Of a stretch of 64,000 nt of DNA, positions 26,661 to 42,787 are shown piece by piece; within the stretch, counting starts at the first letter, position 1, and each line of letters starts with the position of its first letter. The translations under genes were made by a program, and so were the position numbers. The stretch lies in assembly GCF_014647495.1 (NCBI RefSeq), contig NZ_BMPH01000002.1, positions 310,001 through 374,000 of the forward strand, read 5' to 3'. The DNA comes from Glutamicibacter protophormiae (GTDB lineage: Bacteria > Actinomycetota > Actinomycetes > Actinomycetales > Micrococcaceae). The notes below the pieces were generated by a model. The model saw nothing but the letters and a program-made list of their open reading frames with translations, was not told the origin of the DNA and made no database searches.

Positions 26661-27421
26661 AGTTTTACCGTCTCTTCCATGGTGCTGGCCAGGATGTCGG
26701 CCAGGTGCAGGGTCTTGGGCTTGGCTCCGGTGCGGGACAGGCCACCGCCGATGTGCATCAGGCAGGAGGCGTCGCCGCCCGAGCAGGCCGAAGCGCCGGT
26801 GGAACAGATGTTCTTCACCTTGTCCTCGAGCATGGCGGAGGAAACGTCGGCGTTCTTGATGGAGAAGGTGCCGCCGAAGCCGCAGCACTGGTCGGCTTCC
26901 GGCAGCTCGTTCACGGTGATGCCGCCGACGGTCTTGAGCAGGTCGAGCTGGCGGTCGCCGAGCTGCAGCGAGCGCATGCCGTGGCAGGACGGGTGGTAGG
27001 TGATGGTTTCGGGGAAGTAGCTGCCCAGCTGCTTCGCGGCATCGGTGATTCCCAGGACGTCGACCAGCAGCTGCGACAGTTCGTAGGTGCGCTGGCCCAC
27101 CGCTACTGCGCGTTCCTTCAGCTCCGGCTTGCCCAAGCGCTCGGCGAGGTAGGGGTGCTGGTGCTTGACCGAAGCGACGCAGGAGCCCGACGGCGCGACT
27201 GCAACGTCGTAGTCGTCCGTGTCGAAGGCGTTGATATGGTTTTCAACCACTGGCAGGGCTTCGGGCATGTATCCGGAGTTCATGTGCATTTGCCCACAGC
27301 AGGCCTGGGCCTTGGGGAAAATGACCTCATGGCCCAAGCGTTCCAGAATTTTCACTGTGGACTTGGCTGTTTCGGGGTACATGGCATCGACGATGCATGT
27401 GGCAAAGAGAGCGATCCGCAT
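26657..27421 (-). CDS. lutA: Lactate utilisation protein LutA (CCG-domain Fe-S oxidoreductase)
   Basis: A 254-residue protein with two cysteine-rich CCG domains: 'ACCGQMHMNSGY' and 'QCCGFGGTFS', plus 'CHGMRSLQLG'. ATG 27421 is chosen because GAAAGAG precedes it and the product begins directly at 'MRIALFATC', as LutA proteins do. It heads the lutABC operon and lies divergent from the lactate permease, with operator copies between. Confidence 0.94.
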   Translation of the reverse strand: MRIALFATCIVDAMYPETAKSTVKILERLGHEVIFPKAQACCGQMHMNSGYMPEALPVVENHINAFDTDDYDVAVAPSGSCVASVKHQHPYLAERLGKPELKERAVAVGQRTYELSQLLVDVLGITDAAKQLGSYFPETITYHPSCHGMRSLQLGDRQLDLLKTVGGITVNELPEADQCCGFGGTFSIKNADVSSAMLEDKVKNICSTGASACSGGDASCLMHIGGGLSRTGAKPKTLHLADILASTMEETVKL

Positions 27422-27443
27422 ACTAAATAACTCTTTCGAAGTG

Positions 27444-27454
27444 TGGTCTGACCA
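27444..27454. promoter_or_regulatory. FadR/LldR-type operator copy 1
   Basis: TGGTCTGACCA, an exact palindromic arm pair with a central T, 23 bp upstream of the lutA start. The pattern TGGTCnGACCA is the known recognition type of FadR-subfamily GntR regulators such as LldR. Confidence 0.8.
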
Positions 27455-27518
27455 TACTATGCGCGAACCTTCTCGATAGTCAAGACTTGTTGTGATGGCT
27501 CTCACCTCGTACACTTAG

Positions 27519-27529
27519 TGGTCGGACCA
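27519..27529. promoter_or_regulatory. FadR/LldR-type operator copy 2
   Basis: TGGTCGGACCA, sharing both arms with copies 1 and 3, on the permease side of the divergent region. Confidence 0.8.
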
Positions 27530-27533
27530 CGTA

Positions 27534-27544
27534 TGGTCAGACCA
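27534..27544. promoter_or_regulatory. FadR/LldR-type operator copy 3
   Basis: TGGTCAGACCA, only 4 bp after copy 2 and 24 bp before the permease start codon, so a bound regulator would block the permease promoter or early transcription. Confidence 0.8.
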
Positions 27545-27567
27545 TCACAAGTAAGGACGCCCACACC

Positions 27568-29244
27568 GTGTTTACCCCAACAACGGACCCCATAGCTGGC
27601 AGTGTTGCCATCTCTGCGCTGGTCGCGCTCGTTCCGCTGCTCACCTTTTTCATCCTCCTTGCCGTCATTAAGACCAAGGCCCACGTGGCCGGTCTCGGCT
27701 CCTTGGCAGTTGCGATCCTCGTCGCCATCTTCGGCTGGAACATGCCGGTGGGCATGGCGCTGAATTCAGGCGTCATGGGCATGGTGTTCGGCGCCTTCCC
27801 GATTGTCTGGATCGTCGTCATGGCGATCTTCCTCTACCAGGTCACCGTGGTCTCCGGCCGCTTCGAGGACCTGCGCCGCGTCTTCGACGTGATCGGCGGC
27901 GGCGATGTCCGCATCCAGGCCGTGCTGATCGCCTTCTGCTTCGGCGGACTGCTCGAAGCGCTGGCCGGTTTCGGCGCACCGGTGGCCATCACCGCGACCA
28001 TGCTGCTGGCCCTGGGCCTGTCCCCGCTACGCGCCGCCTGCGCCGTGCTGATCGCCAACACCGCCCCGGTCGCCTTCGGCGCCGTGGCCATCCCGATCAC
28101 CACCGCCGGTGCGCTGACCGGTATCCCGTCGGCTGAGATCGGCGCCGTGGTGGGCCACCAGTCGCCAATCCTGGCGCTCTTCGTGCCATCCATCCTGGTC
28201 CTGGTCATCGACGGCTGGCGCGGCATGCGCCAGACCCTGCCGGCTACCTTGTCCATCGGCTTCTCCTTCGCCGTGGCCCAGTGGCTGTGCGCCACCTACT
28301 TCTCCTACGAGCTGACCGACATCGTCGCCTCGCTGGTCGGCCTGGCCGCCGCTGTGATCCTGCTTCGCTTCTGGACCCCGAAGGGCGCCGACGAGGCCCG
28401 CGGCCGCATCCTGACCGCCGAAGCCGCCGCACTGCCGATCGAGCACGGCAAGAAGCTGAACCCTTCCAACACCTGGATGGCGCTGTTCCCCTACCTGCTG
28501 GTCATCCTGATCTTCGGCGTGGCCAAGCTCTGGAAGCTGGGTGTGGACATTCCCGCATGGCTTGCCGGCACCGACATCAAGTTCGGCTGGCCGGGACTGC
28601 ACGGCGCTGTGGTCGACGCCAACGGCGAGGCAGTGTCCTCCACCATCTACAACTTCTCCTGGCTGTCCTCCCCGGGCACCCTGCTGCTGATCACCGGCAC
28701 CATCGTGGCGCTGGTCTATTCGATGAACGACGGCGGCGGCAAGTACAAGATGACCTTCGCCCGCGGCATGGCCGAGGTCTGGCACACCGTCTACAACATG
28801 CGCTACGCCGCACTGACCATCCTGTCGGTGCTGGGCTTGGCCTACGTGATGAACCTGTCCGGCCAGACCATCACCGTGGGCACCTGGCTTGCCGGCACCG
28901 GCGCGTTCTTCGCCTTCCTGTCGCCGATCCTCGGCTGGATCGGCACCGCAGTGACCGGTTCGGATACCTCGGCCAACGCGCTGTTCGCCAAGCTGCAGCA
29001 GACCGCCGGCATGAACGCCGGCATCGATCCGACCCTGCTGGTTGCCGCCAATACTTCCGGCGGCGTGGTCGGCAAGCTGATTTCCCCGCAGAACCTTGCC
29101 ATCGCCGCCACCGCGGTGAAGATGGAGGGCCAGGAATCGGTCATCCTGAAGAAGGTCGCCGGGTGGTCCGTGGGCATGCTGCTGGTGCTGTGCGTGCTGG
29201 TTTACCTGCAGTCCACCCCGGTGTTGTCCTGGATGCTGCCGTAG
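27568..29244 (+). CDS. lctP: L-lactate permease (LctP family)
   Basis: A 558-residue lactate:H+ symporter with about 13-14 membrane segments. 'CFGGLLEALAGFGAPVAITATML', 'LIANTAPVAFGAVAIPI' and 'GSDTSANALFAKLQ' are typical LctP motifs. It starts with GTG 27568. Divergent placement from lutABC and three shared operators make lactate uptake and oxidation co-regulated. The regulator gene follows 28 bp downstream. Confidence 0.95.
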   Translation: MFTPTTDPIAGSVAISALVALVPLLTFFILLAVIKTKAHVAGLGSLAVAILVAIFGWNMPVGMALNSGVMGMVFGAFPIVWIVVMAIFLYQVTVVSGRFEDLRRVFDVIGGGDVRIQAVLIAFCFGGLLEALAGFGAPVAITATMLLALGLSPLRAACAVLIANTAPVAFGAVAIPITTAGALTGIPSAEIGAVVGHQSPILALFVPSILVLVIDGWRGMRQTLPATLSIGFSFAVAQWLCATYFSYELTDIVASLVGLAAAVILLRFWTPKGADEARGRILTAEAAALPIEHGKKLNPSNTWMALFPYLLVILIFGVAKLWKLGVDIPAWLAGTDIKFGWPGLHGAVVDANGEAVSSTIYNFSWLSSPGTLLLITGTIVALVYSMNDGGGKYKMTFARGMAEVWHTVYNMRYAALTILSVLGLAYVMNLSGQTITVGTWLAGTGAFFAFLSPILGWIGTAVTGSDTSANALFAKLQQTAGMNAGIDPTLLVAANTSGGVVGKLISPQNLAIAATAVKMEGQESVILKKVAGWSVGMLLVLCVLVYLQSTPVLSWMLP

Positions 29245-29272
29245 CCTGAATCCGGGCTAAAATTGGGTCTTG

Positions 29273-29980
29273 ATGTCAGTAAATCCAGCTCCACGTGCTT
29301 ACCAGGTAGTTCTCACCGCAATTGAGAACGACCTGCGGTCAGGAGTTCTCACGCTGGGAGACCAGCTCCCTGGCGAGAGGGCCTTGGCCGAAAAGCACGG
29401 AATCTCCCGCGCTTCGGTGCGTGACGCGATCCGCATCCTCGACGTGATGGGGATCGTGCGCACATCCACCGGTTCGGGTCCGAACTCCGGTGCGGTGATC
29501 ATCTCCGAGCCCTCAGCCGGAATCTCCCAGGCACTGCGCTTGCATGTGGCGGCCAAGGGGATCAATGTCCGTGAGATCGTGGAATCGCGAATCCTGCTGG
29601 AAACCTGGGCCGCGCAGATGCAGCCGCGCGATACCGTGTACGCGCAGCAGGTTCTGGACCGCACCGCGGTGCTGATCATGCGCATGGACGACCCGCAGCT
29701 CTCGCGCGACGAGTTCCACCGCATCGACGCGGAGTTCCACGTGCTGCTGGCCTCCACGGCCGGCAATGCGGTGGTCGAGTCCATGATGGAGTCGCTGCGC
29801 AACTCGATCAGCGACTACGTGGCCGCTTCGATCCCGGATGACGAGTCCTGGCAGCCGATCGTGCGGACGCTGCGTCGCCAGCACAAGGCGATCCACCACG
29901 CGTTCGCCACGGACCAGCGCGAGCGCGCGGCCCAGCTGCTCGAGGAGCACATCACCTGGTTCTACTCGCAGACCCACTAG
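29273..29980 (+). CDS. FadR-subfamily GntR regulator of lactate genes (LldR-like)
   Basis: A 235-residue regulator. The N-terminal winged helix has 'GDQLPGERALAEKHGISRASVRDAIR'; the C-terminal FCD domain has 'DEFHRIDAEFHVLL' and 'RQHKAIHHAF', which hold the metal/effector-binding Asp and His residues. ATG 29273 follows a TTG at 29270; the ribosome site is weak. FadR-type proteins bind TGGTCnGACCA, exactly the motif found three times upstream, so it most likely represses lut and lctP until lactate is present. Confidence 0.9.
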   Translation: MSVNPAPRAYQVVLTAIENDLRSGVLTLGDQLPGERALAEKHGISRASVRDAIRILDVMGIVRTSTGSGPNSGAVIISEPSAGISQALRLHVAAKGINVREIVESRILLETWAAQMQPRDTVYAQQVLDRTAVLIMRMDDPQLSRDEFHRIDAEFHVLLASTAGNAVVESMMESLRNSISDYVAASIPDDESWQPIVRTLRRQHKAIHHAFATDQRERAAQLLEEHITWFYSQTH

Positions 29981-29991
29981 CAATTCCAACG

Positions 29992-30034
29992 CCGAGAGCC
30001 TCGATCCATGCTGGATCGAGGCTCTCGGTTTTGT
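29992..30034 (+). terminator. Terminator of the lactate permease/regulator unit
   Basis: A 16-bp perfect stem (29992-30007 with 30013-30028) and TTTT tail. Confidence 0.9.
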
Positions 30035-30154: not shown

Positions 30155-31315
30155 CTATTGGGACTTCCTCGATCTCTTGTTTTCAAGAATGGACTGCACC
30201 CAGTCTTCGGGCATCAGTGTTTCGGGATGGGCAACAACAGCATAGGGCGTTTCACAATTGCGGCAGACCCATTCGGCCCCGGGGCCTATGGGCAGTACGC
30301 ATCCCATAATGACGAAATTGTCATCGTCGAAAATTGCCGGATCTCCCCACAACGCACGGCGGGGATTGCCTTCACCGCATTCAGGACACCGTGGAGCCGC
30401 AGAAAGCACTTTTTGAAGCCGCTTCTTTGTCGGTCCATGCACCAAAGCATGGCAATCTTGGCACAGCAGTCCAGTCTCATCAACGTGATCCTGTATGTCC
30501 CATTTTCTCAAGCCGTCGTGCGGATGGAAGAAATGCACGGACGTCTCGGAACCAACGTCGCGGCCGCATCCATCACATAACGGAACATCTTCGTAGTCCC
30601 GCTGGAGCATGGCAAGCGCATGAACCGCGTCGTTGGAGTGCGGATCTGAACCATTTAAGCACTGGCCTGCGCTGATGACCAGCTGCTGCGGTTCCTTGAC
30701 GAGCTTGTGCAGGGACTTCAAGACGCGCTTGCCGGTCGAGAGACTCAAGGCCTTAGAAGAACGTGGGAGCCCGGAATCAATCATCGATTCAAGGTCGTAG
30801 AGACAGATCGGATCGGATAAGACCCCGAGCGGCTCGACGTACACTTTTTCTTCGGTGACACTCGTGACGGTCTCCATGGCCGCTACCAACGGGGGAGTAG
30901 TTCCCAGCACGGTGAGCAGGAGCGAGCCTTCGGGCACGTCTTCTCCCAGATTCCATTCTCTGGTGCTGACATCTCCCTTGGCCAGAGAGATCGCTGCCTC
31001 AACTGCCGCATCGGCGCCTTCCCAGCAGTAGTACATGCCCTGTCCCGGAGCCATGGACTTTGGAAGGTAAACCTCCTTGCGGGAATAGCGCCCGACTGGT
31101 GCCGGCATATCTGACAAGTCTCCACTACCCTCTTCTGGCACTATGAATCCCTCTTGCTCCTGGATCAAGCTGATGAGCTGTTGCCGAGACATTGCCCGCA
31201 TCCTCGAATCCGTAAAACCGGGAAAATGCTTGGTGAAAATCTCCATCAGCGATTCACGATCGAGCTCGCTGTATTCCGGATGGAATTCAAGCTGATACCG
31301 CTCTGGCATGTACAT
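30155..31315 (-). CDS. HNH-endonuclease-like protein with C-terminal zinc ribbon, last gene of the restriction island
   Basis: A 386-residue protein. Residues 247-293 have an HNH/beta-beta-alpha zinc layout: 'CDGC' (247-250), 'HFFHPH' (261-266) and 'CQDCHALVH' (285-293). The usual Asn before the second Cys pair is not obvious. A second CxxC pair set at 310-313 and 351-354 forms a zinc ribbon. The first 240 residues are unrecognised, starting with a helical 'FPGFTDSRMRAMSRQQLISL' that could bind DNA. GGAGG precedes ATG 31315, and it lies 34 bp after hsdR on the same strand. A nuclease or accessory restriction role is inferred from fold and place only. Confidence 0.7.
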   Translation of the reverse strand: MYMPERYQLEFHPEYSELDRESLMEIFTKHFPGFTDSRMRAMSRQQLISLIQEQEGFIVPEEGSGDLSDMPAPVGRYSRKEVYLPKSMAPGQGMYYCWEGADAAVEAAISLAKGDVSTREWNLGEDVPEGSLLLTVLGTTPPLVAAMETVTSVTEEKVYVEPLGVLSDPICLYDLESMIDSGLPRSSKALSLSTGKRVLKSLHKLVKEPQQLVISAGQCLNGSDPHSNDAVHALAMLQRDYEDVPLCDGCGRDVGSETSVHFFHPHDGLRKWDIQDHVDETGLLCQDCHALVHGPTKKRLQKVLSAAPRCPECGEGNPRRALWGDPAIFDDDNFVIMGCVLPIGPGAEWVCRNCETPYAVVAHPETLMPEDWVQSILENKRSRKSQ

Positions 31316-31349
31316 AGGTCCTCCGGTAGGTCGTGTTGCGTGGGTGTTT

Positions 31350-34300
31350 CTAGGCGATGTGCCGTTGGGCCATGGATTCCATCTGCTCGATCACGAGTTT
31401 GATGGCGGTAGGCTGCTTGTCCGGCGGATAGCCGTTGAGGATCAGTAGTCGCTTCACCGAGGAGCGGAGCTTGGCTCGGACATCTTCTCGGACTGTCCAG
31501 TCGGTGCGGACGTCCCTGCGCATGATCTTCACCAATTGGCGGGCAATTTCTGCCAGCATGTCCGGACCTTGCTCGTGGACGGCGGCCTCGTTGAGAGCCA
31601 CCGCGTCGTAGAAGGCCATTTCGTCTTGATCCATGGGCGGATTGAACTTCTTGCCTCGGTTGGATTCCTCGGCAACTTCCTTGGCCAGCTCTACCAGCTC
31701 GGCGATGACCTCGGCGGAGGTGAGCTGCTGGTTCGTATACTTGTTCATCAGCTCGGTGATGCGCTCCGAGAATGCCCGTTGGCGAATCGTATTGTTCCGT
31801 GTGGACTTTGCCACCTCGGAAGCGACCAATTTGCGCAGCGCTTCGATGGCCAGCTGCGGGTTGCGGGCCTTTTGTGTCTTGGCGATGAACTCCGGGGTGA
31901 GGTCATTGAGCGATGGCTTGGGCATGCCGGCGGCTTCGTAGATGTCCAAGACCTGGCCGGTGGAATCCGTAGCCGTGGCAATGAGCTGGGCGAGCTGGCG
32001 CTGGACGTCCTCGGGAACCGGCAAGCCTCTTGCTTGGCGGTCCTGCGCATCGAACTTGCCCATCCAGACACGGATTTCCTCGTAAACCTGGATCTCCGGC
32101 CGCAGCTCTTCGAGTTTTCCGGAGCCACTGCACAGGGCCCATGCGCGGGCCAGCTGACCGGCCGTGGCACGATACTGGACTGCCAGGGGAAGGACTCCGT
32201 CCTCTGCGCCGGCATTGCCTTCCGTCTCCGGGCTTCGCAGGTAGTTCACCGCACCCGTCACGGCGTTGAGGAATGCCTTGGGACCGGGCTTTCCCAGCAC
32301 CGATCGCCAATTATATCCGGCCAAGAGGGTGCGCACCTGTTCGACGAGCTCACGGGCCAAGGCTGCCGCTTCGTCGATGTTTTTTCCGACCGGCTTGTTC
32401 TTCTGGTCATCTGCCGTGTATTCGGCCAGGGCCTTGGCGAGGTTCTCTGCCAGTGGAGCGTAGGCGACCAAAAGTCCGTCGGTCTTGCCGCGGAAGGTGC
32501 GGTTCACGCGTGCCAGAGTTTGCATGAGCAGCGCGCCCTTGAGCGGACGGTCAAGATACAGGGTGTGCAGCGGCGGAGCGTCGAATCCAGTGAGCATCAT
32601 GTCCTTGACTATCACTAGTTCCAGCTCATCGGCGGGATCCTTGAGGCGTTCCTTGATCACGTTGTTTTCCGAGTCGCGACGCACGTGATCCGAGATCGGC
32701 GGGGCGTCCGAAGCGCTGCCCGAATACACGACCTTGATCTTGCCAGTGGACAGCTCCTCCGAGTGCCAGTCCGGACGCAACTTGGTAATTGCGGAATAGA
32801 GATTGGCACAGATCTCACGTGTGGCCCCGACAATCATGGCCTTGCCATAGGTTGGAATGCCTTCGGTATCTGCGATAAACGGGGCCACGGTGTCGCGGCG
32901 TTTCTCCCAGTGGGTGATCAGATCCTGGGCGAGCTCCGCCAAACGCTCCGGGGCGCCATAGACGGCGTTGACTACTGCCACCGATTGCTCGATGCGGGCA
33001 CGCTCGGTGTCATCCAGACCTACCGTGGCTTCATCTGCGGCATTGTCCAAGTCATCCGGGGTCATGCCGTCCGCAAACTGAACCTTGATCAGGCGGGGCT
33101 CGAAGTACACAGGAACGGTAGCGCCGTCCTCGACTGCACGAGACAGGTCGTAGACGTCGATGTAGTCACCGAAGACATCGCGGGTATTTCGGTCCTCGAA
33201 GGAAATCGGAGTACCGGTAAAGGCGATGAGAGTTGCGTTGGGCAGGGCATCGCGCAAGTGCCGCGCGTAACCGTCCAGATCGTCATAGTGGCTTCGGTGG
33301 GCCTCATCCACGATGACAATGATGTTCTTCCGGTCCGAGAGCAGCGGGTGCTCCAGGCCTGCGTCCTTCTCATCCTTGGTGCGGCCAAACTTCTGCAAGG
33401 TGGTGAAGTATATTCCGCCGGTGACCCTGCCTGAGAGTTCTTCGCGCAGTTCAGCACGGCGGCGGATCTGCTTGGGTGTATCAGGTAGCAACAGCGAACG
33501 GGCAAAACCCGAGTACAGTTGGCCGTCCAGTTCATTGCGGTCGGTGATCACCACGACAGTGGGATTCTTCAGCGCGGGATGGCGCATGACGCGGTTGGTG
33601 TAGAGCTCCATTTCCATGGACTTGCCCGAACCCTGGGTGTGCCAGACAACGCCGGCCTTGCCGTTGGTGCGCACGGCGTCAATGGTCGAACCGACCGCCT
33701 TGGTGACGGCGAAATACTGGTGCGGCTTGGCGATGCGTTTGAGCAGGCCTTCCGCCCCGGCATCAAATGCCGTAAACGACTGCAGCAGCTGAAGGAATCG
33801 GGTCGGGTTATACAGCCCGGCAATTGCCGTCTCAATCGGCAGTACCGCATCGCCCTCAATGACTTGGCCGGCGGGGACGGGAACACCGTCATCATCAACG
33901 TTCCACGGGGAGAAGTGGTTCAGCGGGGTGAACGGGGTGCCGTATTTGGCATCCAGACCGTCGGAAGCAAAGGTGAAGACACAGAAACGGAACGCCATCG
34001 GGAATTCGCGCAAGTAGGTCTGAAGCTGGGCATGCGCGGCGGCGACATCCGCGCTCTTGGATCCGGCCCGTTTCAGTTCCATGATGCTCACCGGCATGCC
34101 GTTGCAGTACAGGACAATATCAAAGCGGCGATTGTAGTCGCCTTGAACCAGAGTGACCTGGCTGACCGCGAGCCAGTCATTGTCCGTCTCCTCGGTGCCA
34201 AGCAGCCGCAACGTGGGATTCTGCTCGGTGCCATCCGGATCCAGAAAAGTCAGGCGATAGCCCTCCACGAACATCTTGTGCATGCGGTGGTTTTCCGTAA

Positions 34301-34547
34301 TGGCATCCTGGGATGCCGGGGCTACAATCTCTGCATAGGCCTGCTGCAGGTACTGTTCCGGGATGCCGGGATTCAGCCTGCGCAGCGCGGCGAGCAAGCG
34401 CGGACGGATCAGCAGCTCATCCCAGGAATCGCGTTCACCGGTGCCGGGCGCGATGTCCTGGCCGTGGGCGGGCTTCCAGCCGTCGCCGAGCCACTCTAGG
34501 ACGAGTCCCTCTAGGTCTGCTTCGGAGAAGCTGGTGTTCATGGTCAT
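31350..34547 (-). CDS. hsdR: Type I restriction endonuclease subunit R
   Basis: A 1065-residue motor-nuclease. The N-terminal PD-(D/E)XK core shows 'RFDIVLYCNG' (Asp near 143) and 'MELKR' (Glu 157, Lys 159). The SF2 translocase has Walker A 'TQGSGKS' (304-310), DEAH 'VDEAHRSHYDD' (414 on), 'FTGTPISFEDRNT' and 'ARVNRTFRGKTDG' (motif VI region). All catalytic residues are present, so it looks functional. It translocates and cleaves DNA lacking the HsdM/HsdS methylation. It is separated from hsdS by the DUF1016 gene, which is less usual than hsdR-M-S adjacency. Confidence 0.95.
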   Translation of the reverse strand: MTMNTSFSEADLEGLVLEWLGDGWKPAHGQDIAPGTGERDSWDELLIRPRLLAALRRLNPGIPEQYLQQAYAEIVAPASQDAITENHRMHKMFVEGYRLTFLDPDGTEQNPTLRLLGTEETDNDWLAVSQVTLVQGDYNRRFDIVLYCNGMPVSIMELKRAGSKSADVAAAHAQLQTYLREFPMAFRFCVFTFASDGLDAKYGTPFTPLNHFSPWNVDDDGVPVPAGQVIEGDAVLPIETAIAGLYNPTRFLQLLQSFTAFDAGAEGLLKRIAKPHQYFAVTKAVGSTIDAVRTNGKAGVVWHTQGSGKSMEMELYTNRVMRHPALKNPTVVVITDRNELDGQLYSGFARSLLLPDTPKQIRRRAELREELSGRVTGGIYFTTLQKFGRTKDEKDAGLEHPLLSDRKNIIVIVDEAHRSHYDDLDGYARHLRDALPNATLIAFTGTPISFEDRNTRDVFGDYIDVYDLSRAVEDGATVPVYFEPRLIKVQFADGMTPDDLDNAADEATVGLDDTERARIEQSVAVVNAVYGAPERLAELAQDLITHWEKRRDTVAPFIADTEGIPTYGKAMIVGATREICANLYSAITKLRPDWHSEELSTGKIKVVYSGSASDAPPISDHVRRDSENNVIKERLKDPADELELVIVKDMMLTGFDAPPLHTLYLDRPLKGALLMQTLARVNRTFRGKTDGLLVAYAPLAENLAKALAEYTADDQKNKPVGKNIDEAAALARELVEQVRTLLAGYNWRSVLGKPGPKAFLNAVTGAVNYLRSPETEGNAGAEDGVLPLAVQYRATAGQLARAWALCSGSGKLEELRPEIQVYEEIRVWMGKFDAQDRQARGLPVPEDVQRQLAQLIATATDSTGQVLDIYEAAGMPKPSLNDLTPEFIAKTQKARNPQLAIEALRKLVASEVAKSTRNNTIRQRAFSERITELMNKYTNQQLTSAEVIAELVELAKEVAEESNRGKKFNPPMDQDEMAFYDAVALNEAAVHEQGPDMLAEIARQLVKIMRRDVRTDWTVREDVRAKLRSSVKRLLILNGYPPDKQPTAIKLVIEQMESMAQRHIA

Positions 34548-34595
34548 GGAGCTAGATCCTTTTCTCGAAGCGAAGAGTCATAGGTTTTGTGGTTC

Positions 34596-35705
34596 TCACC
34601 AGGAATGGTCGTCTTTGTTCAGTTCAGCATCTGCAAGTTCTGCTTCCAGCTCGACGATGCTCGGCAGGCTGCGGGAAACATCTTCTGGAAGCGAGTCTTT
34701 CAGCTCGGTGGCCCATTCGGCCACGCTGATAGGCGAACTGAAACCGCGCAGTGCATACTCGGCCACGACCGAGTTCTTGGTCTTGCACAGCAACAGGCCA
34801 ATCGTGGGTTCATCCCCGGGTTGGGCAAACAAGTCATCCACAGCGCTCATGTACATGCCCAGCTGTCCGAGGTGGCCGGGTTCGAACTTCGTCGCTTTCA
34901 GCTCGACGACAACGAAACGGCGAAGGATGAAGTTGTAGAAGATCAGATCCGGGAAGAATTCGTCTCCGGTCACATCCAATCTTAGTTGCCGGCCAACGAA
35001 CGCGAATCCTCGTCCGAGCTCCAGAAGGAACCTTTCGACCTGGTGCATCAGTTGGTCTTCAAGTTCCCGTTCATTGTGGGACTCGGTCATCTCCAGGAAA
35101 TCGAAGACATAGGGGTCCTTCGCGGCATTATGGACAAAGGCCGAAGTCGGGGAAGGCAGCGTTGCCTCGAAATCGGAGACTGCCTGACCGGAGCGCTCGT
35201 GCAGGCGGGTCTCGATCTGGCGCACGAGGTGGTTGCGGGACCACCCTTCCGAAAGCGCCATTGCCGCGAACCAATTGCGTGTGGATTCGTCGTCAAGTTT
35301 CTCCAATAAGGCGATGTGGAGGTACCACGGCAATTGTGCAAGCGGCGCTTGCACAATTGCCGTGGCTGACCGGGTAGCGGCGAAGGAGCGCATATATTTC
35401 AGGTTTCGAGGCGAGAAGCCCTTGATTCCTGGAAAGCGCTCGCGAAGGTCGGTGGAGAGCCGGTCCATGACCTTGGAGCCCCAGCCCTGCTCCGACTGGC
35501 GATCGAGGATGTCGTGCCCAACGTGCCAGTAGGTGACGACCAACTCCTGATTGACAGCCTGCTGTGCATGCCGCTGTCCTTGCGCTACATGATTACTAAA
35601 CGAGTCAAGGAGCGTCGGGTACCAAGAGGAAAGGCCAGCAATAGTCGGTGTATTGGAAATCCGCACAACATCATTGGAAATAAGCGCATCATTTTTCGAA
35701 TTCAT
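34596..35705 (-). CDS. DUF1016 (YhcG-family) PD-(D/E)XK nuclease-domain protein
   Basis: A 369-residue protein between hsdS and hsdR. The N-terminal half has the family pattern 'WHVGHDILDRQSEQGWGSKV', 'GFSPRNLKYMRSFA' and 'IVQAPLAQLPW'. The C-terminal half has a PD-(D/E)XK-like core: 'FFPDLIFYN', 'FVVVELKATKFEPGHLGQLGMY'. Family members occur with type I restriction systems, and their cleavage role is not settled. GGGAAAGG precedes ATG 35705. A perfect 20-bp inverted repeat lies within the coding sequence (35325-35365). Confidence 0.88.
   Translation of the reverse strand: MNSKNDALISNDVVRISNTPTIAGLSSWYPTLLDSFSNHVAQGQRHAQQAVNQELVVTYWHVGHDILDRQSEQGWGSKVMDRLSTDLRERFPGIKGFSPRNLKYMRSFAATRSATAIVQAPLAQLPWYLHIALLEKLDDESTRNWFAAMALSEGWSRNHLVRQIETRLHERSGQAVSDFEATLPSPTSAFVHNAAKDPYVFDFLEMTESHNERELEDQLMHQVERFLLELGRGFAFVGRQLRLDVTGDEFFPDLIFYNFILRRFVVVELKATKFEPGHLGQLGMYMSAVDDLFAQPGDEPTIGLLLCKTKNSVVAEYALRGFSSPISVAEWATELKDSLPEDVSRSLPSIVELEAELADAELNKDDHSW
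35325..35365. repeat. Perfect 20-bp inverted repeat inside the DUF1016 gene
   Basis: Arms 35325-35344 and 35346-35365 are exact reverse complements with a single central base. The repeat encodes part of the conserved 'IVQAPLAQLPW' motif. It would form a long hairpin in RNA or cruciform in DNA. Confidence 0.85.
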
Positions 35706-35778
35706 GCCACTGACCTTTCCCTTGTGAAAATACCACTAACTAGAATTTATCCGGTTACAGTGACGAAATGGCTCCCAG

Positions 35779-36972
35779 TTACACCACAGAACCAACTAGC
35801 GTCTCGGCGTCCTTGAGTTGGAGTTTGCCCGACATGAGTTGGGGGAGGAGTGCGTCGCGAGTTGCTGCGAGTGCTCGATTCTCTGCTGCCAAAGCAACAC
35901 GAGACCTATACAGATCTTCCGTGGTACTTTCGAAGTAATTGATAGCTTCTATATCTGGGATCAGAACATTGTTTTCTTCCAAGTCCTTTTTATTGAGATG
36001 GATTACTGTAGTTCCTGTTTTGTAATTCTCAATAGTGGCGAGAGGGCGCTTAAGCGACTCACGAACAAAAGCTGACTTCCCAAGTTTGCTGGTGACTCGA
36101 CAAACGCGTTGATTAAGTAGACCCGGCTCGCCGAGCCAGCTTGTCGCCCGGAACTCGGCGTCCATTCCAACCACGACATCGCCGGCGTGCACAAGTGTCT
36201 CTTTCGACCGAGACTCGGTGGTCCATACTTGCGAGGTAAACGTCTTGAGATCTCGAATTCTGATTAGAGGGCGCCCAGTTCCCGGTTCTGCAAATTTGTC
36301 CCCTTTGAAGGCTTCGCCGAACTGCACGTCGAAGACCTCAAGGAATGGCTTCACTTTCGAAACGGATCCCTGAATCGCTGCTTCGAATTGTAGATGAATG
36401 TAGGTATCTATATTGTTTGCAAACTTGGTGTTGAATGCGATCTTGTCGTCAAGCGCACCGAGTACATCCGCGATGGCTCGCTGCTTTGTGATCGTTGGCA
36501 TAAAGATTTTTGCAGTATTCAGGTCTCTCACTGGCAACTGCGGCTGGGCACTTCCGGAGACTAAAGATTCTACCTGTGCGCCGAAAAATTCTGATCGCAG
36601 GAAATAATAAAGATAGCGTGCATCGAGGAAGCGACTGTCTGCTCTGACTAAGAGCATCCCTGAATTTATTCGGATGTTGTCGTACGGTACGGTTTCATCA
36701 TAAAGTGCACAATTACCAACAGTACCTCGAGTCGTCAAGACTATGTCGCCACGCTTTAGTTTGCCGGCACGAAGGATAGAATCCTTGGCGCCTGATATGA
36801 ACGACGTCTCTTCGAAGAGAAACCCAGACTTCGTCACATTGCGAGCGCTGAGGAACAAACAGTCCCCGTTTGTAGTGAAGTCAGTACCATTCGGGTAGTG
36901 TTTTCCCCGGTCTCCATCGATGAGTTGGAGTGGTGCATCGGCAATCAATAACTTTTGGCAGTTACGGATCAT
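35779..36972 (-). CDS. hsdS: Type I restriction-modification specificity subunit S
   Basis: A 397-residue protein with two target-recognition domains. The first shows 'NGDCLFLSARNVTKSG', 'GDIVLTTRGTVGN' and 'SGSAQPQLPVRDL'. The conserved helix 'KQRAIADVLGALDDKIAFN' then separates the halves. The second shows 'GDVVVGMDAEFRA' and ends with the distal helix 'ENRALAATRDALLPQLMSGKL'. The bipartite DNA target would be set by these domains. Base composition is visibly more AT-rich than hsdM and hsdR, as is common for exchanged specificity genes. ATG overlaps the hsdM stop by 4 nt. Confidence 0.93.
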   Translation of the reverse strand: MIRNCQKLLIADAPLQLIDGDRGKHYPNGTDFTTNGDCLFLSARNVTKSGFLFEETSFISGAKDSILRAGKLKRGDIVLTTRGTVGNCALYDETVPYDNIRINSGMLLVRADSRFLDARYLYYFLRSEFFGAQVESLVSGSAQPQLPVRDLNTAKIFMPTITKQRAIADVLGALDDKIAFNTKFANNIDTYIHLQFEAAIQGSVSKVKPFLEVFDVQFGEAFKGDKFAEPGTGRPLIRIRDLKTFTSQVWTTESRSKETLVHAGDVVVGMDAEFRATSWLGEPGLLNQRVCRVTSKLGKSAFVRESLKRPLATIENYKTGTTVIHLNKKDLEENNVLIPDIEAINYFESTTEDLYRSRVALAAENRALAATRDALLPQLMSGKLQLKDAETLVGSVV

Positions 36973-38585
36973 GAAACCCTCCCAAGTTGCTTGCGCGCAA
37001 TCCCTGTTAACCGCTCTGATTCCTCGAACTGCTCAAACAGTTCTTTCTTGAGCCGTGCGATCTTCTCCTCGATCGGTTCGCCGTCGTCTTCGACTTCTGG
37101 TGTACCCACATAACGGCCTGGGGTGAGCGCGTAGTCGGCATCTCTGATTTCCATCAGGGTAGCGGAGTAGCAAAAGCCTGCTTTGTCGGCGTACTCCTTG
37201 CTTTCGGCCGATGAAGTACCACGCCACGCATGGAAGGTGTCAGCAATCTTGGCAATGTCTTCATCGCTCAGTGCGCGTTCGGCACGGTCAATCATGTGGC
37301 CGAGGTTGCGGGCATCGATAAAGAGAACCTGACCGGTACGGTCAGTAGCACCTTGGGAGCCAGTAGTCTTGTCCTTGGCAAAGAACCACGTGCACACGGG
37401 GATTCCGGTGGAACGGAAGAGCTGGGTCGGCAGCGCGACCATGCAGGAAACCAGATCCGCCTCCACTAACTGGGCGCGGATGTCACCTTCTCCACCGGAG
37501 TTCGAGGACATGGAGCCGTTGGCCATGACCACACCAGCTGTGCCACCTGGAGCCAGCTTGGAAATGATGTGCTGGATCCACGCATAGTTGGCGTTGTTTG
37601 CCGGTGGAACGCCGAAGCGCCAGCGCGGATCGGACTCATTGCGCGCCCAGTCCTTGATGTTGAACGGTGGGTTAGCCATGATGTAGTCGGCCTGCATGTC
37701 CGGGTGCTGGTCGCGGGCGAAGGTGTCTCCCCAGCGCGGAGCCAGGTTCGCATTGAGCCCGTGGATAGCCAGGTTCATCTTGGCCATACGCCAGGTGCGC
37801 TCGTTCAGCTCCTGACCGTAGACGGAGATCGCAGTGCGGTCTGCGTTGTGAGCGTCCAAGAATTTTTCGGTCTGCACGAACATGCCGCCCGAGCCACAGG
37901 CAGGGTCGTAGACGCGTCCGCTGGTCGGTTCGAGTACCTCCACAAGCACGCGGACTACACCAGCCGGGGTGTAGAACTCTCCGCCGCGCTTGCCCTCAGC
38001 CCGCGCGAACTTCTCCAGGAAGTATTCGTAGACTTCGCCAAGAAGATCTCGTGCGCGTCCCGAACCTTGGCCGGTGAATCGGGCAGTATTGAACAGGTCG
38101 ATCAATTCACCCAAGCGGCGCTGGTCTACCGAATCGCGGTTGAAGATTCTTGGCAGGGTACCTGCAAGGGTGGCGTTGGCACCCATGATTGCGTCCATTG
38201 AGGCATCGATGAGTTCGCCAATGTTCTTCGGTGCTGCACCATCGATTGCGGGAAGGCCCTTGGCGTTTTCTGCCAGGTAGTTCCAGCGGGCATTCTCCGG
38301 AACCCAGAAGACGCCGCGTCCGGTGTACTCATCGACATCGTCAATGAGCATGGCAATCTGGTCTTCGCTCATGCCGTCTTCTGCCAGCTCGGCGGCCAGC
38401 TGGTCGCGGCGCTCGGCGAAGGCATCGGAAACGTACTTCAGGAAGACCAGTCCAAGGATCACGTCCTTGTACTGCGAGGCATCCATGGAACCACGCAGCT
38501 TGTCTGCCGCTCTCCAGAGCGTGTCTTTGAGTTCCTTCATGGTGCTTGGCGCAGCTTCAGCCGCCGCCTTTTTTGTTCGTGCCAC
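36969..38585 (-). CDS. hsdM: Type I restriction-modification methyltransferase subunit M
   Basis: A 538-residue N6-adenine methyltransferase. The N-terminal helical domain is followed by the SAM motif 'DPACGSGGM' (227-235) and catalytic 'NPPF' (305-308). The intact motifs contrast with the degenerate paralogue upstream. It starts with GTG at 38585, using the last base of the upstream TAG, with GGAAGGA before it. With HsdS it methylates adenines in the bipartite target and protects host DNA. Confidence 0.95.
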   Translation of the reverse strand: MARTKKAAAEAAPSTMKELKDTLWRAADKLRGSMDASQYKDVILGLVFLKYVSDAFAERRDQLAAELAEDGMSEDQIAMLIDDVDEYTGRGVFWVPENARWNYLAENAKGLPAIDGAAPKNIGELIDASMDAIMGANATLAGTLPRIFNRDSVDQRRLGELIDLFNTARFTGQGSGRARDLLGEVYEYFLEKFARAEGKRGGEFYTPAGVVRVLVEVLEPTSGRVYDPACGSGGMFVQTEKFLDAHNADRTAISVYGQELNERTWRMAKMNLAIHGLNANLAPRWGDTFARDQHPDMQADYIMANPPFNIKDWARNESDPRWRFGVPPANNANYAWIQHIISKLAPGGTAGVVMANGSMSSNSGGEGDIRAQLVEADLVSCMVALPTQLFRSTGIPVCTWFFAKDKTTGSQGATDRTGQVLFIDARNLGHMIDRAERALSDEDIAKIADTFHAWRGTSSAESKEYADKAGFCYSATLMEIRDADYALTPGRYVGTPEVEDDGEPIEEKIARLKKELFEQFEESERLTGIARKQLGRVS

Positions 38586-40624
38586 TAGGGCCGTCCTTCC
38601 GTACAGATACTTGGATTAATTATCTCAGCTTCACCGGACAATAAGGTGCTGATCAGCTGTTCTGAGATGATGTCTAGTTGGCCAATGCGCTGGGCTGCGG
38701 CAAGGCGTTCTTCTTCAATTATTCGCAGCGAGCTTTCCAGGGGAGCAACCATGTCCTGAGGAAGTCTGCGGATATCCCACCGCCGCCAATTCGAATGCTG
38801 TGCGTCGTTGATGTCCTTCACCAATACCTCGGCCATGATTCCAGAACTCTCTTGGGAATCGATTCTGAGAATCCTTACCGGGTAATTCACCGCGTGCGAT
38901 CCTTGATGATCCACCACTGCGGTGGGCTTGCCATGAGCAGTGAAGACGACATCGCCGGCTTTTGTGAGGACCGCTTGGTCATATGCCTGGGCTAGATCGA
39001 AGTAGGATACGACGCTCGTGGGCAGCCCCTCCCTCAGATCCGCAGCGTTCCATACCTTGATGCCTTCGCTTGGTACGGAATCCAACGCTTGGCTCGTGAA
39101 GCGCGTCCCTGAAATGAGTCGGATAGTGCCTTGGCTGACCAAGTCTCCCAGCGGAGTTGCTCCTTTCCGATGGTCCCTGGATGGTAGCTCATCGATATTT
39201 CGTGGTCGAAGCTCGATTTTCAGTTCTGGCCTGTCCTTGGCCGACGAATTCAGGTGATCAAGCGCCAGCTCCAGCTGCACCTGCCGCTTGGCCAGAGATG
39301 AAGAATCCACGGCAGCCGACGCGTTCGTATTCCTTTTGCCGGGAATCAGGCTTCCCGTAGAGGCAACGACGACGCTGGCACGCGCCCATTGGGCAAACCT
39401 GAACGCATGGGATCGCAAAGCATCATCACCGATGAGGCTTGCACCGATGTCCGTGGCGAAGTCGTCAATGACTTGCTCATCCAGTTCAAGGTCGCTGAGG
39501 TTCGACAGCATGATCCGACGTTCCGCCAGCGGGAGGCCCTTGGCCTCCGGCCCGATGACCCACAATGCCATGGCAGTCCGTGGTTTGTAGAGCAGATGGC
39601 CTTGGGGGAGCCGCGCAGCCGCTCGAACCCGCCCCATACGCAGGATTGAGCCACGGATGCTGGCTGACTTCTTGGAAGGCATGGCATCGATCAATACGTC
39701 TGCGGGCGCAATGACGACGGCCCCTTGCGCTGGACCAAGTTCCAGAACCAAGTCATCGATTTCATGCAAGATCGTTTCTGGATCAGTCGTTGGCATCCCA
39801 GGCGAAGGGAACTGTGCCACATGGACTACCTGCTGGTTACCGGGACGAGTTTTGACCAGGCTCAGGGACTCGTTCGCGGAAGCAAGCATCTTGAGCCGGC
39901 GCAAGGCCATGCGGACTTCTGGGCTTGGGCTTCCGGTAACTGCCGGTTGCTGGATAACTGCCGCGGCAGATTCATCCAGTGATCGTGCCAGTTCGTGAAT
40001 CAGGTCGCTGCCGGCGTGGGTAGCTTCATGGAAATACATTTCAACGCCCGATAATTCAAGAGCGCAACGGGCTACCAACTGGCGTGCCTGAGCTGAAATG
40101 GCGGTGCGGCTTATTGCGGTCTCAGTGGCGCGAAATCGATCGGACACCAGTGATTGAAGGGCCGGCAGCGCCCCGTATGAAGCATCGACAAGCTTGTCGA
40201 CATATGCCGCCAGGAACTCCAAATGGTCCGATGCTGCTTCAAGTTCCGAATAGAGGAACTCATCATCCGGATCAATCCCATCTGCCGCGTCAAGCAGGTC
40301 TTCGGAGCCCAAGCCCTTGAACGGCCGATCCCAGAGCTGTCTGAGAACAAGCAGCGCGCTGACCGAATGAAAATTGTCGCGTGCAATGTTTGAAAACGCC
40401 GCGGCGTCTGCATCAAACTCCGGATTGTTGCCCCGTCCGGTGGCCTTAAACCAGGAAACGATTTCTGCCGCATCAAAAAAATCTTGGGAACCAACGGTCC
40501 GCGCCGGTTCGGGAAATGGGGTTTCGGTCCCACGGCTGCGAGAGCGCCATACGGTGACCACCGGTCGTTGCACCTGGGCGAGGCGCGCAATGTCTGACAG
40601 CGACAGCAATTCCTGCACCTGCAT
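38585..40624 (-). CDS. Probable catalytically dead HsdM relative with N-terminal HTH and C-terminal target-domain-like region
   Basis: A 679-residue protein opening the restriction operon; GAGGAGG precedes ATG 40624. Residues 5-40 resemble a MerR-like HTH ('SLSDIARLAQVQRPVVTVWR', then 'PFPEP'). Residues 222-360 follow the order of an N6-methylase core, but the SAM motif is reduced to 'QPAVTGSPS' (226-234). The catalytic NPPF is replaced near 'VAQFPSPGMP' (269-278), although the post-catalytic 'RVRAAARLPQGHLLYKPRTAMALWVIG' pattern remains. Residues 500-600 look like a TRD ('AGDVVFTAHGKPTAVV'), and a terminal helix follows. I infer a non-catalytic DNA-binding or regulatory subunit; it may instead be an unrelated family. 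Confidence 0.65.
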   Translation of the reverse strand: MQVQELLSLSDIARLAQVQRPVVTVWRSRSRGTETPFPEPARTVGSQDFFDAAEIVSWFKATGRGNNPEFDADAAAFSNIARDNFHSVSALLVLRQLWDRPFKGLGSEDLLDAADGIDPDDEFLYSELEAASDHLEFLAAYVDKLVDASYGALPALQSLVSDRFRATETAISRTAISAQARQLVARCALELSGVEMYFHEATHAGSDLIHELARSLDESAAAVIQQPAVTGSPSPEVRMALRRLKMLASANESLSLVKTRPGNQQVVHVAQFPSPGMPTTDPETILHEIDDLVLELGPAQGAVVIAPADVLIDAMPSKKSASIRGSILRMGRVRAAARLPQGHLLYKPRTAMALWVIGPEAKGLPLAERRIMLSNLSDLELDEQVIDDFATDIGASLIGDDALRSHAFRFAQWARASVVVASTGSLIPGKRNTNASAAVDSSSLAKRQVQLELALDHLNSSAKDRPELKIELRPRNIDELPSRDHRKGATPLGDLVSQGTIRLISGTRFTSQALDSVPSEGIKVWNAADLREGLPTSVVSYFDLAQAYDQAVLTKAGDVVFTAHGKPTAVVDHQGSHAVNYPVRILRIDSQESSGIMAEVLVKDINDAQHSNWRRWDIRRLPQDMVAPLESSLRIIEEERLAAAQRIGQLDIISEQLISTLLSGEAEIINPSICTEGRP

Positions 40625-40847
40625 AGAGACCTCCTCGGGAACGGGCGAACGATGTGACTCAAGCCTAATGGAAATGCGTAGATTAGGAGAAAGAAATCGT
40701 GATAACCCCTATTATCAGTCATTCACTTATTGTTTGACACTTGATCGAAGGATGCTGGTTCCACGACGACGGAACAGCATCCGACCCCTTCGAGGCAGGC
40801 AATCGCTCACCGTCCAGCTCATCAAGTTCTCGCCCCAGGAGGCCACC

Positions 40848-41327
40848 GTGGAAACACAGATACAGGGACCTATCGTCCCGCCGGAAATGCTGAGGAAGCG
40901 TCGCAAGAAGTCTTGGATCGCCCCTGCTGCCGGAGGCCTCGTGGCCGGCACCGTCCTGGGATTGGTGATCGGGGTATCGGTCGCTGGCGGTGGTCTGGGT
41001 GGTTCGGCACTGACACAGAAAGCCATCGACCAAGCGGTGGAAACCTGTGCGATGGAGGCCGAGGGCTACACCGTCATGGAGGACGGCACAGCCGTGGAGC
41101 TGGATACCAAGGGGACGGACCTTTACGACGACGGGACCCGGGACTATGCGGCCTATGCCTGCATGCTCGACGAGCTGGGTGTCCCGGAAATCACCCAGCA
41201 GAAAATCGAACGCACCAGGGCGCTGGACGGGACCCAAATCGACAGCTGGGACGATCTGCAGGCCAGCTGGTCCTATCACCCGGATACCGGAATCAACGTA
41301 CTGATCGAAGGAGCGAAGGAAAAATGA
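40848..41327 (+). CDS. Small single-pass membrane protein (first of three-gene cluster)
   Basis: A 159-residue protein from GTG 40848, with AGGAGG upstream. Residues 1-20 are basic ('RKRRKKSW'), 21-45 form one membrane segment ('GGLVAGTVLGLVIGVSVAGG'), and the outer part carries two Cys in 'VETCAMEAEGYTVMED' and 'DYAAYACMLDELGV' that could pair. No family is recognised. It overlaps the next gene by 4 nt (ATGA), so both are probably made together at the membrane. Confidence 0.75.
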   Translation: METQIQGPIVPPEMLRKRRKKSWIAPAAGGLVAGTVLGLVIGVSVAGGGLGGSALTQKAIDQAVETCAMEAEGYTVMEDGTAVELDTKGTDLYDDGTRDYAAYACMLDELGVPEITQQKIERTRALDGTQIDSWDDLQASWSYHPDTGINVLIEGAKEK

Positions 41328-41959
41328 GCACGCTCAAGCCACTGCAACCCGTGCCGGCCGACCAGCCGGAAACTCCAAAGGCCAAGAAGAAGCGCTGGGG
41401 GCTCATCCTGGGTTCGGCCTCGGCGATTGCGGCTCTGGGAGGTGGAGTGTTCTGGGGGATGAACATCCCTGATCCCAAGGAATCGGAAGAGTACATCGCT
41501 CTCTCGGACACCACCACGGCAGTGTTTGCCGAGCGCGACAAGCTCAGCTCCGAGTTGAATGAGCTGAAATCCGGGCTTGCCGAACGCGAGGGGGAACTGG
41601 AGCAGCAGGGCAAGGATCTGGACGCACGCTCCACGAAGTTGGACGAACGCGACGAGAAGCTTGCCGGCGCGGAAGCCGCCGTGGCGGCCCGCGAGAAGGC
41701 TGTCGGCAAGATCGAGGTTGAGCAGGAAGAAAACTCGGTCAGCGACGGCATCTGGACAGTTGGAACGGATATCAAGGCGGGTACTTATCGCGCCAAGGAA
41801 GCCGTAGGCAGCAATTGCTACTGGGCTGTCTTGAAATCTGGGACCAATGGTGACGACATCGTCAACAACGGAATCCCTGGTGGTGGCAGGCCAACTGTCA
41901 CCGTGCGCAAAGGCCAGGACTTCGAATCCGTACGCTGCGGCACCTGGGTCAAGCAGTAG
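41324..41959 (+). CDS. Membrane-anchored coiled-coil protein with small C-terminal domain
   Basis: A 211-residue protein. A basic stretch and one membrane segment (about 24-46) are followed by a coiled coil rich in Glu, Lys and Leu (about 60-140), then a 65-residue domain with 'DGIWTVGTDIKAGTYRAK' and two Cys ('NCYWAVL', 'RCGTWVKQ'). That C-terminal pattern is repeated in many actinobacterial surface proteins, often after a lipoprotein or membrane anchor, and has no known activity. The arrangement suggests an extracytoplasmic stalk bearing a compact head. Confidence 0.75.
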   Translation: MSTLKPLQPVPADQPETPKAKKKRWGLILGSASAIAALGGGVFWGMNIPDPKESEEYIALSDTTTAVFAERDKLSSELNELKSGLAEREGELEQQGKDLDARSTKLDERDEKLAGAEAAVAAREKAVGKIEVEQEENSVSDGIWTVGTDIKAGTYRAKEAVGSNCYWAVLKSGTNGDDIVNNGIPGGGRPTVTVRKGQDFESVRCGTWVKQ

Positions 41960-42010
41960 CGCTCTGCGCACAACAATCTTTCCCGATCATCACATAGCTA
42001 AGGAATCATC

Positions 42011-42787
42011 ATGAGCTACACCACCATGCAGCCCGCGCCGATGGCGCAGTACCCCGTCCCGCAGGCCCCGCAGAAGTCCTTCCTGGCAACCTGGCTGTTG
42101 TCGCTCCTGCTGGGCGTGCTGGGTGTTGACCGCTTCTACCTGGGCAAGGTGGGCACCGGCCTGCTGAAGCTGTTTACGCTTGGCGGGTTCGGCATCTGGG
42201 CGCTGATCGACCTGATCATCATCCTCAGCGGCGGCATGACGGACAAGTACCGCCGTCCGCTGGAAGGCTACGCCAAGCACAAGTTGCTGGCATGGATCAT
42301 CAGCATTGTTGTTGTGGTCATCGGCGGCATCAGCGGCGTCAACAACGCCAGTTCGGCAGTCACCGACCAGGGCTTCGATTCCCCGTCGGTGCAGCAGCCT
42401 GCTGCCGTTGAACCTCCGGCCATCGACGAGCCGCAGGCCGAAGAGCAGGAAGAACCCGCAGCCAAGGAAGAGAAGGCTGAAGCCTCCTGGCAGGAAGTCA
42501 TCACCCTTGATGGCAAGAGCGACAAGTCCAGCAAGGTCTTCGAGCTCACCGGGGCCGAAGCCCGCATGACCTACAGCTTCAAGGGCGGAGAAGACATGTC
42601 GCTGGGTGCCATCTATCTGCTGACCGAAGGCACCGACCTGATGAAGGACGGCGGCATCCCGGAGGTCATGATCGACGGTCCGGTGAAGGAAGAGACCGCG
42701 CTGCACAAGTCGGCCGGCGCCTACTTCCTGGACGTGAACGCAGCGAACTTCGACGGGTGGAGCATCACCATCGAGGAAAAGCGCTAA
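42011..42787 (+). CDS. TM2-domain protein with extracytoplasmic C-terminal domain
   Basis: A 258-residue protein. The TM2 domain ('[22 protein letters not shown]', then '[14 protein letters not shown]') occupies about 24-75. A further membrane segment lies near 95-115 ('[18 protein letters not shown]'). A Glu/Pro/Ala-rich linker leads to a folded C-terminal domain ('[21 protein letters not shown]', '[20 protein letters not shown]'). It follows the coiled-coil gene by 51 bp and precedes a strong terminator, so the three genes form one unit. Function is unknown. Confidence 0.8.

Follow-up and report, generated by a model that had tools for sequence, protein, structure and literature searches.

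What does a 679-residue protein do at the head of a complete set of type I restriction-modification (RM) genes? This question is raised by a 64,000-nt stretch of Glutamicibacter protophormiae DNA (contig NZ_BMPH01000002.1, positions 310,001 to 374,000 of the forward strand; hereafter the window), in which the gene of that protein, here designated P679, directly precedes hsdM. On the comparisons described below, P679 is probably a dedicated, sequence-specific regulator of the type I RM operon, derived from a retired methyltransferase (MTase) in which a modification subunit was fused to half a specificity subunit (M plus half-S), and the palindrome GATAA-N6-TTATC upstream of its gene would be its site. 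P679 is characteristic of an entire actinobacterial group of type I systems, although its gene is annotated as encoding a hypothetical protein in 5 of 5 plasmid records. The features concerned are as follows (HTH, helix-turn-helix; TRD, target-recognition domain).

38585..40624, minus strand: P679 gene; 679 aa, with the HTH at about residues 7-66, a helical region, a degenerate MTase fold at about 194-420, and a TRD plus long helix at about 489-662
36969..38585, minus strand: hsdM; 538 aa, type I MTase subunit with DPACGSGG and NPPF present
35779..36972, minus strand: hsdS; 397 aa, specificity subunit with two TRDs
31350..34547, minus strand: hsdR; 1065 aa, restriction/translocase subunit with HSDR_N and an SF2 motor
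40701..40716, no strand: palindrome GATAA-N6-TTATC, proposed operator; GATAATAGGGGTTATC as read on the minus strand, 76 nt upstream of the P679 ATG
40662..40667, minus strand: TAGGCT, proposed -10 of the P679 promoter; 33 nt past the palindrome, its TANNNT form recurring at about this offset

The domain content of the three hsd products in Pfam (N6_Mtase and HsdM_N; Methylase_S; HSDR_N, SWI2_SNF2 and T1RH-like_C) assigns them to a type I RM system, whose methylation and restriction activities are predicted only. An earlier reading of this DNA (the original prediction) had already recognized a complete type I set within a co-oriented run of six genes, and both statements were confirmed: six open reading frames (ORFs), all on the minus strand, extend from 40624 down to 30155, with the predicted overlaps of 1 nt between the P679 gene and hsdM and of 4 nt between hsdM and hsdS.

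The occurrence of P679 was surveyed in an order-level sample of 297 genomes, in which HsdM was searched at E values up to 1e-100. P679 was matched in 27 of the 297 genomes, in two of them (G020 and G188) by the HTH alone, and HsdM in 35, with a clean break in identity; when the HsdM proteins were divided by identity (not by tree), P679 was present in 24 of the 24 genomes whose HsdM was at least 62% identical and in 0 of the 11 whose HsdM was 52-56% identical, bar an unlinked HTH-methylase fusion in G020. In G295, P679 was present and hsdM was interrupted by a contig end. From this sample, 25 of 26 P679-type ORFs were aligned (L058, at a contig end, was omitted), and a scan of a species-genome collection with this 25-sequence alignment gave 213 relatives, the best 80 of which constitute the 80 P679 loci counted below. 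Because the search for relatives demanded a conserved HTH peptide, it under-represents members whose HTH has changed; furthermore, the order-level and 80-locus sets overlap in some genomes, and the counts are inflated by relatedness among loci. Nine of the 80 loci were kept out of the alignment termed A2, because they were truncated, reached a contig end or had a start set too far upstream, yet entered the operator counts. By record title all 80 loci belong to Actinomycetes, bar L093 (Sporosarcina), whose 64% GC suggests a misnamed record.

Among the 78 of these loci that extend at least 600 nt downstream of P679, 75 carry hsdM there, directly so except in L123, and the overlap was exactly 1 nt in 31 of the 75. 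Among the 69 loci with 9 kb downstream, hsdM was present in 66, hsdS in 65 and hsdR in 58. The core of P679, hsdM, hsdS and hsdR is also carried by five plasmids, four of them typed conjugative, and the viral contigs searched for P679 relatives contained none. As a separate observation, L098 (Mumia quercus) has P679 and an exact palindrome and, in the 10 kb downstream, no match to hsdM, hsdS or hsdR, so that its P679 is possibly an orphan regulator.

P679 itself gave no match in Pfam (E up to 1), PADLOC or NCBIfam (E up to 0.1), and a PDB sequence search with its profile returned nothing below E 0.3. When 25 family members were searched, eight Pfam families were matched by any of them, including weak N6_Mtase matches in three members (best E 0.015) and HTH_17 in two (best E 0.0009); HTH_17 and HTH_23 were the only HTH families among the eight. 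The AlphaFold2 model built from 72 sequences (mean pLDDT 90.6, pTM 0.74) has a short HTH first and a single long helix after the TRD at its end, and Foldseek ranked the type I MTase 7eew at the top (E 1e-14 over 673 columns), ahead of BpuSI and numerous HsdM chains. Profile comparison of P679 residues 489-661 with HsdS gave E 5.7e-7. The predicted structure, comprising an MTase fold, one TRD and a long helix, is that of an HsdM-half-S single-chain protein. In particular, 7eew, the intact type I MTase of Vibrio vulnificus YJ016, which we take to be a single-chain M plus half-S dimer, is similar in fold over nearly the whole P679 chain, and P679 differs from it by the HTH in front and the loss of motifs. 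The original label of "HsdM-like", which had no direct database match behind it, should be changed to a degenerate M plus half-S fold carrying an HTH.

The motif I pattern (DPACGSG) was found in 0 of 72 P679 members, and an NPPY-like string was absent from 70 of the 72. At the motif IV place A-Q-[YLF]-P was the commonest sequence, and the two Oerskovia members (L117 and L137) carry SPPW, which aligns near residue 277 of the P679 of this locus, a few residues past that place. Since both the motif I pattern and motif IV are lost, catalysis by P679 is very probably gone, and P679 as an active HsdM or N6 adenine MTase was rejected.

When spaced word pairs were counted without bias in the 260 nt upstream of P679 at 55 non-redundant loci, GATAA-N6-TTATC and words overlapping it came out on top. 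The exact palindrome was present at 51 of the 55 loci versus 4 of 275 windows drawn at random from those loci, a control rate that is if anything too high because such windows could land on real sites. The 64-kb window holds a single match (40701-40716), 100 shuffles of it none, and the whole 3.83-Mb genome two copies; the original prediction was silent on this palindrome. Over the 80 loci the palindrome was exact at P679 in 75; L101, L110 and L139 have one mismatch each, L123 has a 5-nt spacer, and in L135, with the order hsdR-P679-hsdM-hsdS, a two-mismatch copy heads hsdR. In the order-level set it was exact in 21 of 25, with one mismatch in three and two mismatches in one. At least one exact palindrome occurred somewhere in 75 of the 297 genomes, including genomes without P679, and an exact one near hsdM in 0 of the 11 genomes having a related HsdM and no P679. 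In the 1.65 Mb that the 80 loci comprise, only 10 sites matching with up to one mismatch were scored as separate from both P679 and the raw hsdR starts, among which one was L139's own P679 site and four fell at hsdR after start correction. Five plasmid homologues, which took no part in deriving the motif, carry it as well: the exact palindrome was found in 3 of 3 from Micrococcaceae, at -81 to -86, and the one-mismatch form GGTAACCCSGGTTATC in 2 of 2 from Streptomyces, whose P679 is 28% identical, at positions -134 and -138 relative to the annotated start. The palindrome was rejected as a -10 box, for which GATAAT would fit the consensus here, but most loci have GATAAC or GATAAG, without the final T.

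The surroundings of the palindrome are also constrained. A forward TANNNT starts at offsets 48-50 relative to it in 43 of 51 non-redundant loci, and within a wider slot in 45 of 51 versus 2 of 408 control slots. A reverse-strand TANNNT stands at -40 or -39 in 30 of the 51 loci, and both elements occur in 28; at the present locus the left element is imperfect (GATGCT). With the usual -10 spacing assumed, the centre of the palindrome is about 53 nt away from each of the two inferred start points, and the palindrome would be the shared operator of two mirrored, divergent promoter-like elements. No conserved -35 appears upstream of P679 across the loci, and this feature together with the centre near -53 slightly favours activation or dual control as the sign of regulation.

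The palindrome, with up to one mismatch allowed, further occurs between -71 and -103 at 9 of 26 detached hsdR genes and at 0 of 36 attached ones. A gene was called detached when the preceding hsd or YhcG gene lay over 250 nt away; starts were corrected, and hsdR fragments lacking the N-terminus were discarded. On raw ORF starts the corresponding counts were 5 of 27 and 0 of 37. The palindrome thus accompanies hsdR in some loci and stays with the operon head when gene order changes.

We infer from this distribution that P679 reads the palindrome, and its dimerization, reading domain and sign of action are deduced in the same manner. In the mechanism that we propose, a retired single-chain type I MTase, with M fused to half S, an N-terminal HTH and the usual catalytic motifs gone, would form a homodimer, probably joined by the half-S helix, and would sit on GATAA-N6-TTATC between the mirror-image divergent promoters. 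From there it would control its own operon, P679-hsdM-hsdS-cargo-hsdR, also hsdR in some of the loci where hsdR is detached, and possibly the divergent membrane-protein gene described below.

P679 could instead be a structural or modulating subunit of the methylation or restriction complex, that is, a pseudo-M with an extra TRD, the palindrome then belonging to another regulator. This would suit its M plus half-S fold, the overlap with hsdM and the strict co-occurrence with one HsdM group, and PacII is a type I enzyme described with two different M subunits (7vru; PMC9613975). We nevertheless regard it as unlikely, since the palindrome goes with P679, being absent near related hsdM genes that lack P679, and changes place along with hsdR and where the genes are permuted. 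The mean pairwise identity of the P679 domains (23-55% versus 79% for HsdM) would also be unusual for a tight interface, and the conserved TRD of P679 is at odds with the exchange of specificities in HsdS.

Several observations weigh against P679 as the dedicated regulator. The overlapping hsd genes are equally compatible with a complex subunit, and some other protein could read the palindrome, P679 being the most parsimonious reader. The absence of P679 from the 11 genomes with the more distant HsdM is based on a first look scoring at most three candidates per genome, and P679 occurs with no hsdM behind it in 3 of 78 loci (L095, L098 and L138). Profile comparison of residues 196-358 with HsdM was colinear but weak (E 0.055). 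The motif I Asp is kept in 64 of 72 members, and the glycines in many, so that P679 could conceivably still bind the cofactor. Finally, 17 of the 26 detached hsdR genes have no copy at up to one mismatch, and the nine with a copy include relatives (four Agromyces; Isoptericola and Krasilnikoviella) and, coming in several cases from related genera, represent fewer than nine independent events.

As to which part of P679 would contact the DNA, its TRD has a mean identity of 44% and tracks HsdM divergence (rho 0.61; 69 loci), unlike the two TRDs of HsdS, which average about 20% identity with no tracking of HsdM (rho 0.06 and 0.04) in the same number of loci. A fixed P679 TRD therefore fits a fixed site, and the palindrome is such a site. 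The palindrome could alternatively be the methylation target of HsdM-HsdS, acting as an epigenetic switch on the operon's own promoter. Type I sites are typically bipartite and adenine-containing, as the palindrome is. At about 20% TRD identity, the HsdS specificities very probably differ from locus to locus while the palindrome is constant, and with two copies in 3.83 Mb the palindrome is rare; this possibility is scarcely credible, and the palindrome was rejected as an RM target.

We tentatively propose, at somewhat less than even likelihood, that the single TRD of P679, dimerized via the half-S helix, reads the palindrome as HsdS reads its target, while the surviving M fold may sense free HsdM, HsdS or cofactor. 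If true, the freely varying specificity part of an enzyme would have been frozen into a promoter-recognition module, a specificity subunit turned transcription factor. It is close to an even chance that P679 regulates with the HTH alone reading the palindrome, in the manner of Ecl18kI or SsoII, the dead M and half-S parts serving to dimerize or sense. The HTH is the best conserved P679 domain (mean pairwise identity 0.55), with seven invariant residues (V18, R20, V22, V23, W26, R27 and R29), and HTH-fused methyltransferase repressors are known (PMC12707154). The bipartite site, with 5-bp arms and a 6-bp spacer as a half-S dimer would read, and the conservation of the P679 TRD, unlike those of HsdS, speak for the TRD and are not decisive. 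At the loci with variant sites, the deviating HTH and TRD residues did not tell the two apart. The HTH alternative contests the detail of reading by the TRD, not regulation by P679, and the precise operator predicted here makes the switching on of the operon in a new host directly testable; such operons also reside on conjugative plasmids.

Transcriptional control of type I restriction is little covered in print; a Mycoplasma C-protein and RptR turned up, and among the open-access PMC matches listed, as judged by title and start of abstract, there was no dead-methyltransferase regulator of type I RM. RptR, the RMS-proximal transcriptional regulator of Gammaproteobacteria (RMS, restriction-modification system), uses TAGCTA to repress a type I operon, and 54 of its 117 homologues adjoin a type I RMS (PMC12255303). 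Like P679, RptR is encoded immediately upstream of a type I RM operon with conserved promoter palindromes, and it acts as a homodimeric repressor. It is small and helical, with TAGCTA repeats overlapping the -10, whereas P679 has 679 aa in an M plus half-S fold and its presumed site, unlike that of RptR, is a single 16-bp bipartite palindrome upstream of the -35. TAGCTA does not occur at 40620-40850 of the window.

HsdC of Mycoplasma gallisepticum is a C-protein that controls a type I hsd operon by binding the direct repeats (GTGTTAN5)2 (PMC5282649), and thus resembles P679, as read here, in being the product of a controller gene of such an operon; so far as described there, it has no methyltransferase part, unlike P679. 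A small stand-alone C protein of the HsdC type was accordingly rejected for P679, with its 679 aa and M plus half-S fold. C proteins govern many type II systems, and a C-like gene governs a Mycoplasma hsd operon, as summarized in PMC12707154, where the HTH-fused type II methyltransferases Ecl18kI, SsoII and EcoRII (SsoII being a cytosine-5 methyltransferase; PMC3978073) are stated to act through an operator between promoters. P679 would share with these three an HTH fused to a methyltransferase and an operator between overlapping promoters, and by its predicted N-terminal HTH and the palindrome between divergent promoter-like elements it would resemble HTH-fused regulatory MTases in layout. 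Those proteins, so far as described there, serve type II systems as modification enzymes; P679 is motif-less and stands beside a separate hsdM gene whose product has intact motifs, so that regulator and active modification enzyme are not the same polypeptide. P679 shares its presumed job with the known regulators and its architecture with 7eew, and lacks one defining feature of each regulator family tested.

An HTH-N6 methylase fusion with a P679-type HTH was noticed at 1444-3171 of L027, from a related genome, where 576 of its 764 aa are covered. Like P679 it has the same HTH (E 4e-16) and the HTH-MTase order, and it matches the P679 profile; unlike P679 it keeps DPACG in motif I, with ETPF at the NPPF place (by eye), and lies far from the hsdM of that genome. 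It is possibly of the ancestor type or a second degenerate line.

The remaining two genes of the run are the following.

34596..35705, minus strand: DUF1016/YhcG PD-(D/E)XK gene; 369 aa, optional cargo between hsdS and hsdR
30155..31315, minus strand: zinc protein gene; 386 aa, HNH-like Cys/His pattern, not a conserved partner

Together with P679 and hsdMSR they had been taken for a six-gene compound defence system, which is favoured by the co-orientation, by the short gaps (hsdS-YhcG 73 nt, YhcG-hsdR 48 nt, hsdR-zinc gene 34 nt) and by the recurrence of YhcG, found in the hsdS-hsdR interval of 14 of the 80 loci, in three of them (L073, L080 and L087) by a weak or partial match. The order was not conserved across P679 loci: most lack YhcG, its slot being taken by other genes or by none, and in 24 of the 57 loci with both genes and 9 kb downstream hsdR directly follows hsdS. 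No zinc-protein relative was found after hsdR, which was matched in 64 of the 80 loci, 43 of them covering at least 1.5 kb beyond. A compound system of all six genes is thus very improbable. The assigned DUF1016/PD-(D/E)XK family proved correct (DUF1016_N, E 1.1e-39; YhcG_C, E 1.4e-58, in the 369-aa protein). As for the proposal of three accessory genes within the type I set, which was to be judged by co-occurrence across genomes, P679 truly belongs, YhcG is intermediate and the zinc gene does not recur. Because YhcG is variable, optional cargo and no zinc relative was found after hsdR, the conserved system is a four-gene core of P679, hsdM, hsdS and hsdR with a cargo slot between hsdS and hsdR.

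The zinc gene is essentially private to this locus. Its product, searched without the first residue in the hidden Markov model libraries and the 297 genomes, had relatives in 3 of the 297, its own included, and in 3 of the 80 loci (L103, L106 and L122), where they lie about 4-7 kb from P679 on the opposite side; it was therefore rejected as a system component. In L103 and L106 an aldehyde dehydrogenase gene (by eye) is situated shortly upstream of the relative. The "HNH/zinc-ribbon, nuclease fold" assignment amounts to a Cys/His pattern (C247, C250, H261, H266, C285, C288, H289 and H293) invariant in four zinc-protein sequences; no Pfam, PADLOC or NCBIfam family scored above cut-off, the zinc-ribbon Pfam matches were sub-threshold, and the model (pLDDT 47.3) was too poor for a structure search.

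On the other side of the palindrome, a divergent run of genes for small membrane or secreted proteins at 40848-42787 (plus strand) encodes a small membrane protein of a family that we name YHPD, a coiled-coil protein (41324-41959) and a TM2 protein (42011-42787).

40848..41327, plus strand: YHPD small membrane protein gene; divergent, recurrent neighbour across the palindrome

YHPD was found in 12 of 25 P679 genomes (the two HTH-only genomes omitted) versus 23 of 272 others, and in 30 of the 80 P679 loci, being divergent beside P679 in 25 of these and located on the cargo side in five, with L120 having both. Of the 23 genomes with YHPD and no P679, 16 were examined, and 15 of these 16 stretches gave a YHPD match with the profile; none of these stretches had it in an hsd operon of the P679 type, and in L159 a distant HsdM/HsdS pair adjoins. 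In G295, contig C89 (L175) has no P679 match, P679 being elsewhere in that genome, and carries a second exact palindrome at position 1273, some 480 nt ahead of a YHPD ORF.

Other neighbours divergent to P679 were a protein of about 475-520 aa with a conserved C-terminal part (L108, L113, L115 and L122), and DUF2130 and DUF4352 genes on an Arthrobacter plasmid. On two Streptomyces plasmids (L180 and L181), P679-hsdMSR is accompanied by divergent AAA ATPase, TPR and DUF6119 genes, with NB-ARC in L181, possibly a larger defence cluster. In the window, the island is flanked at 25188-29980 by lactate-utilisation-like and lactate-permease-like genes (by eye) and a GntR/FCD regulator gene (Pfam), and a strong stem followed by a T run lies between the lactate-type genes and the island at 29991-30029.

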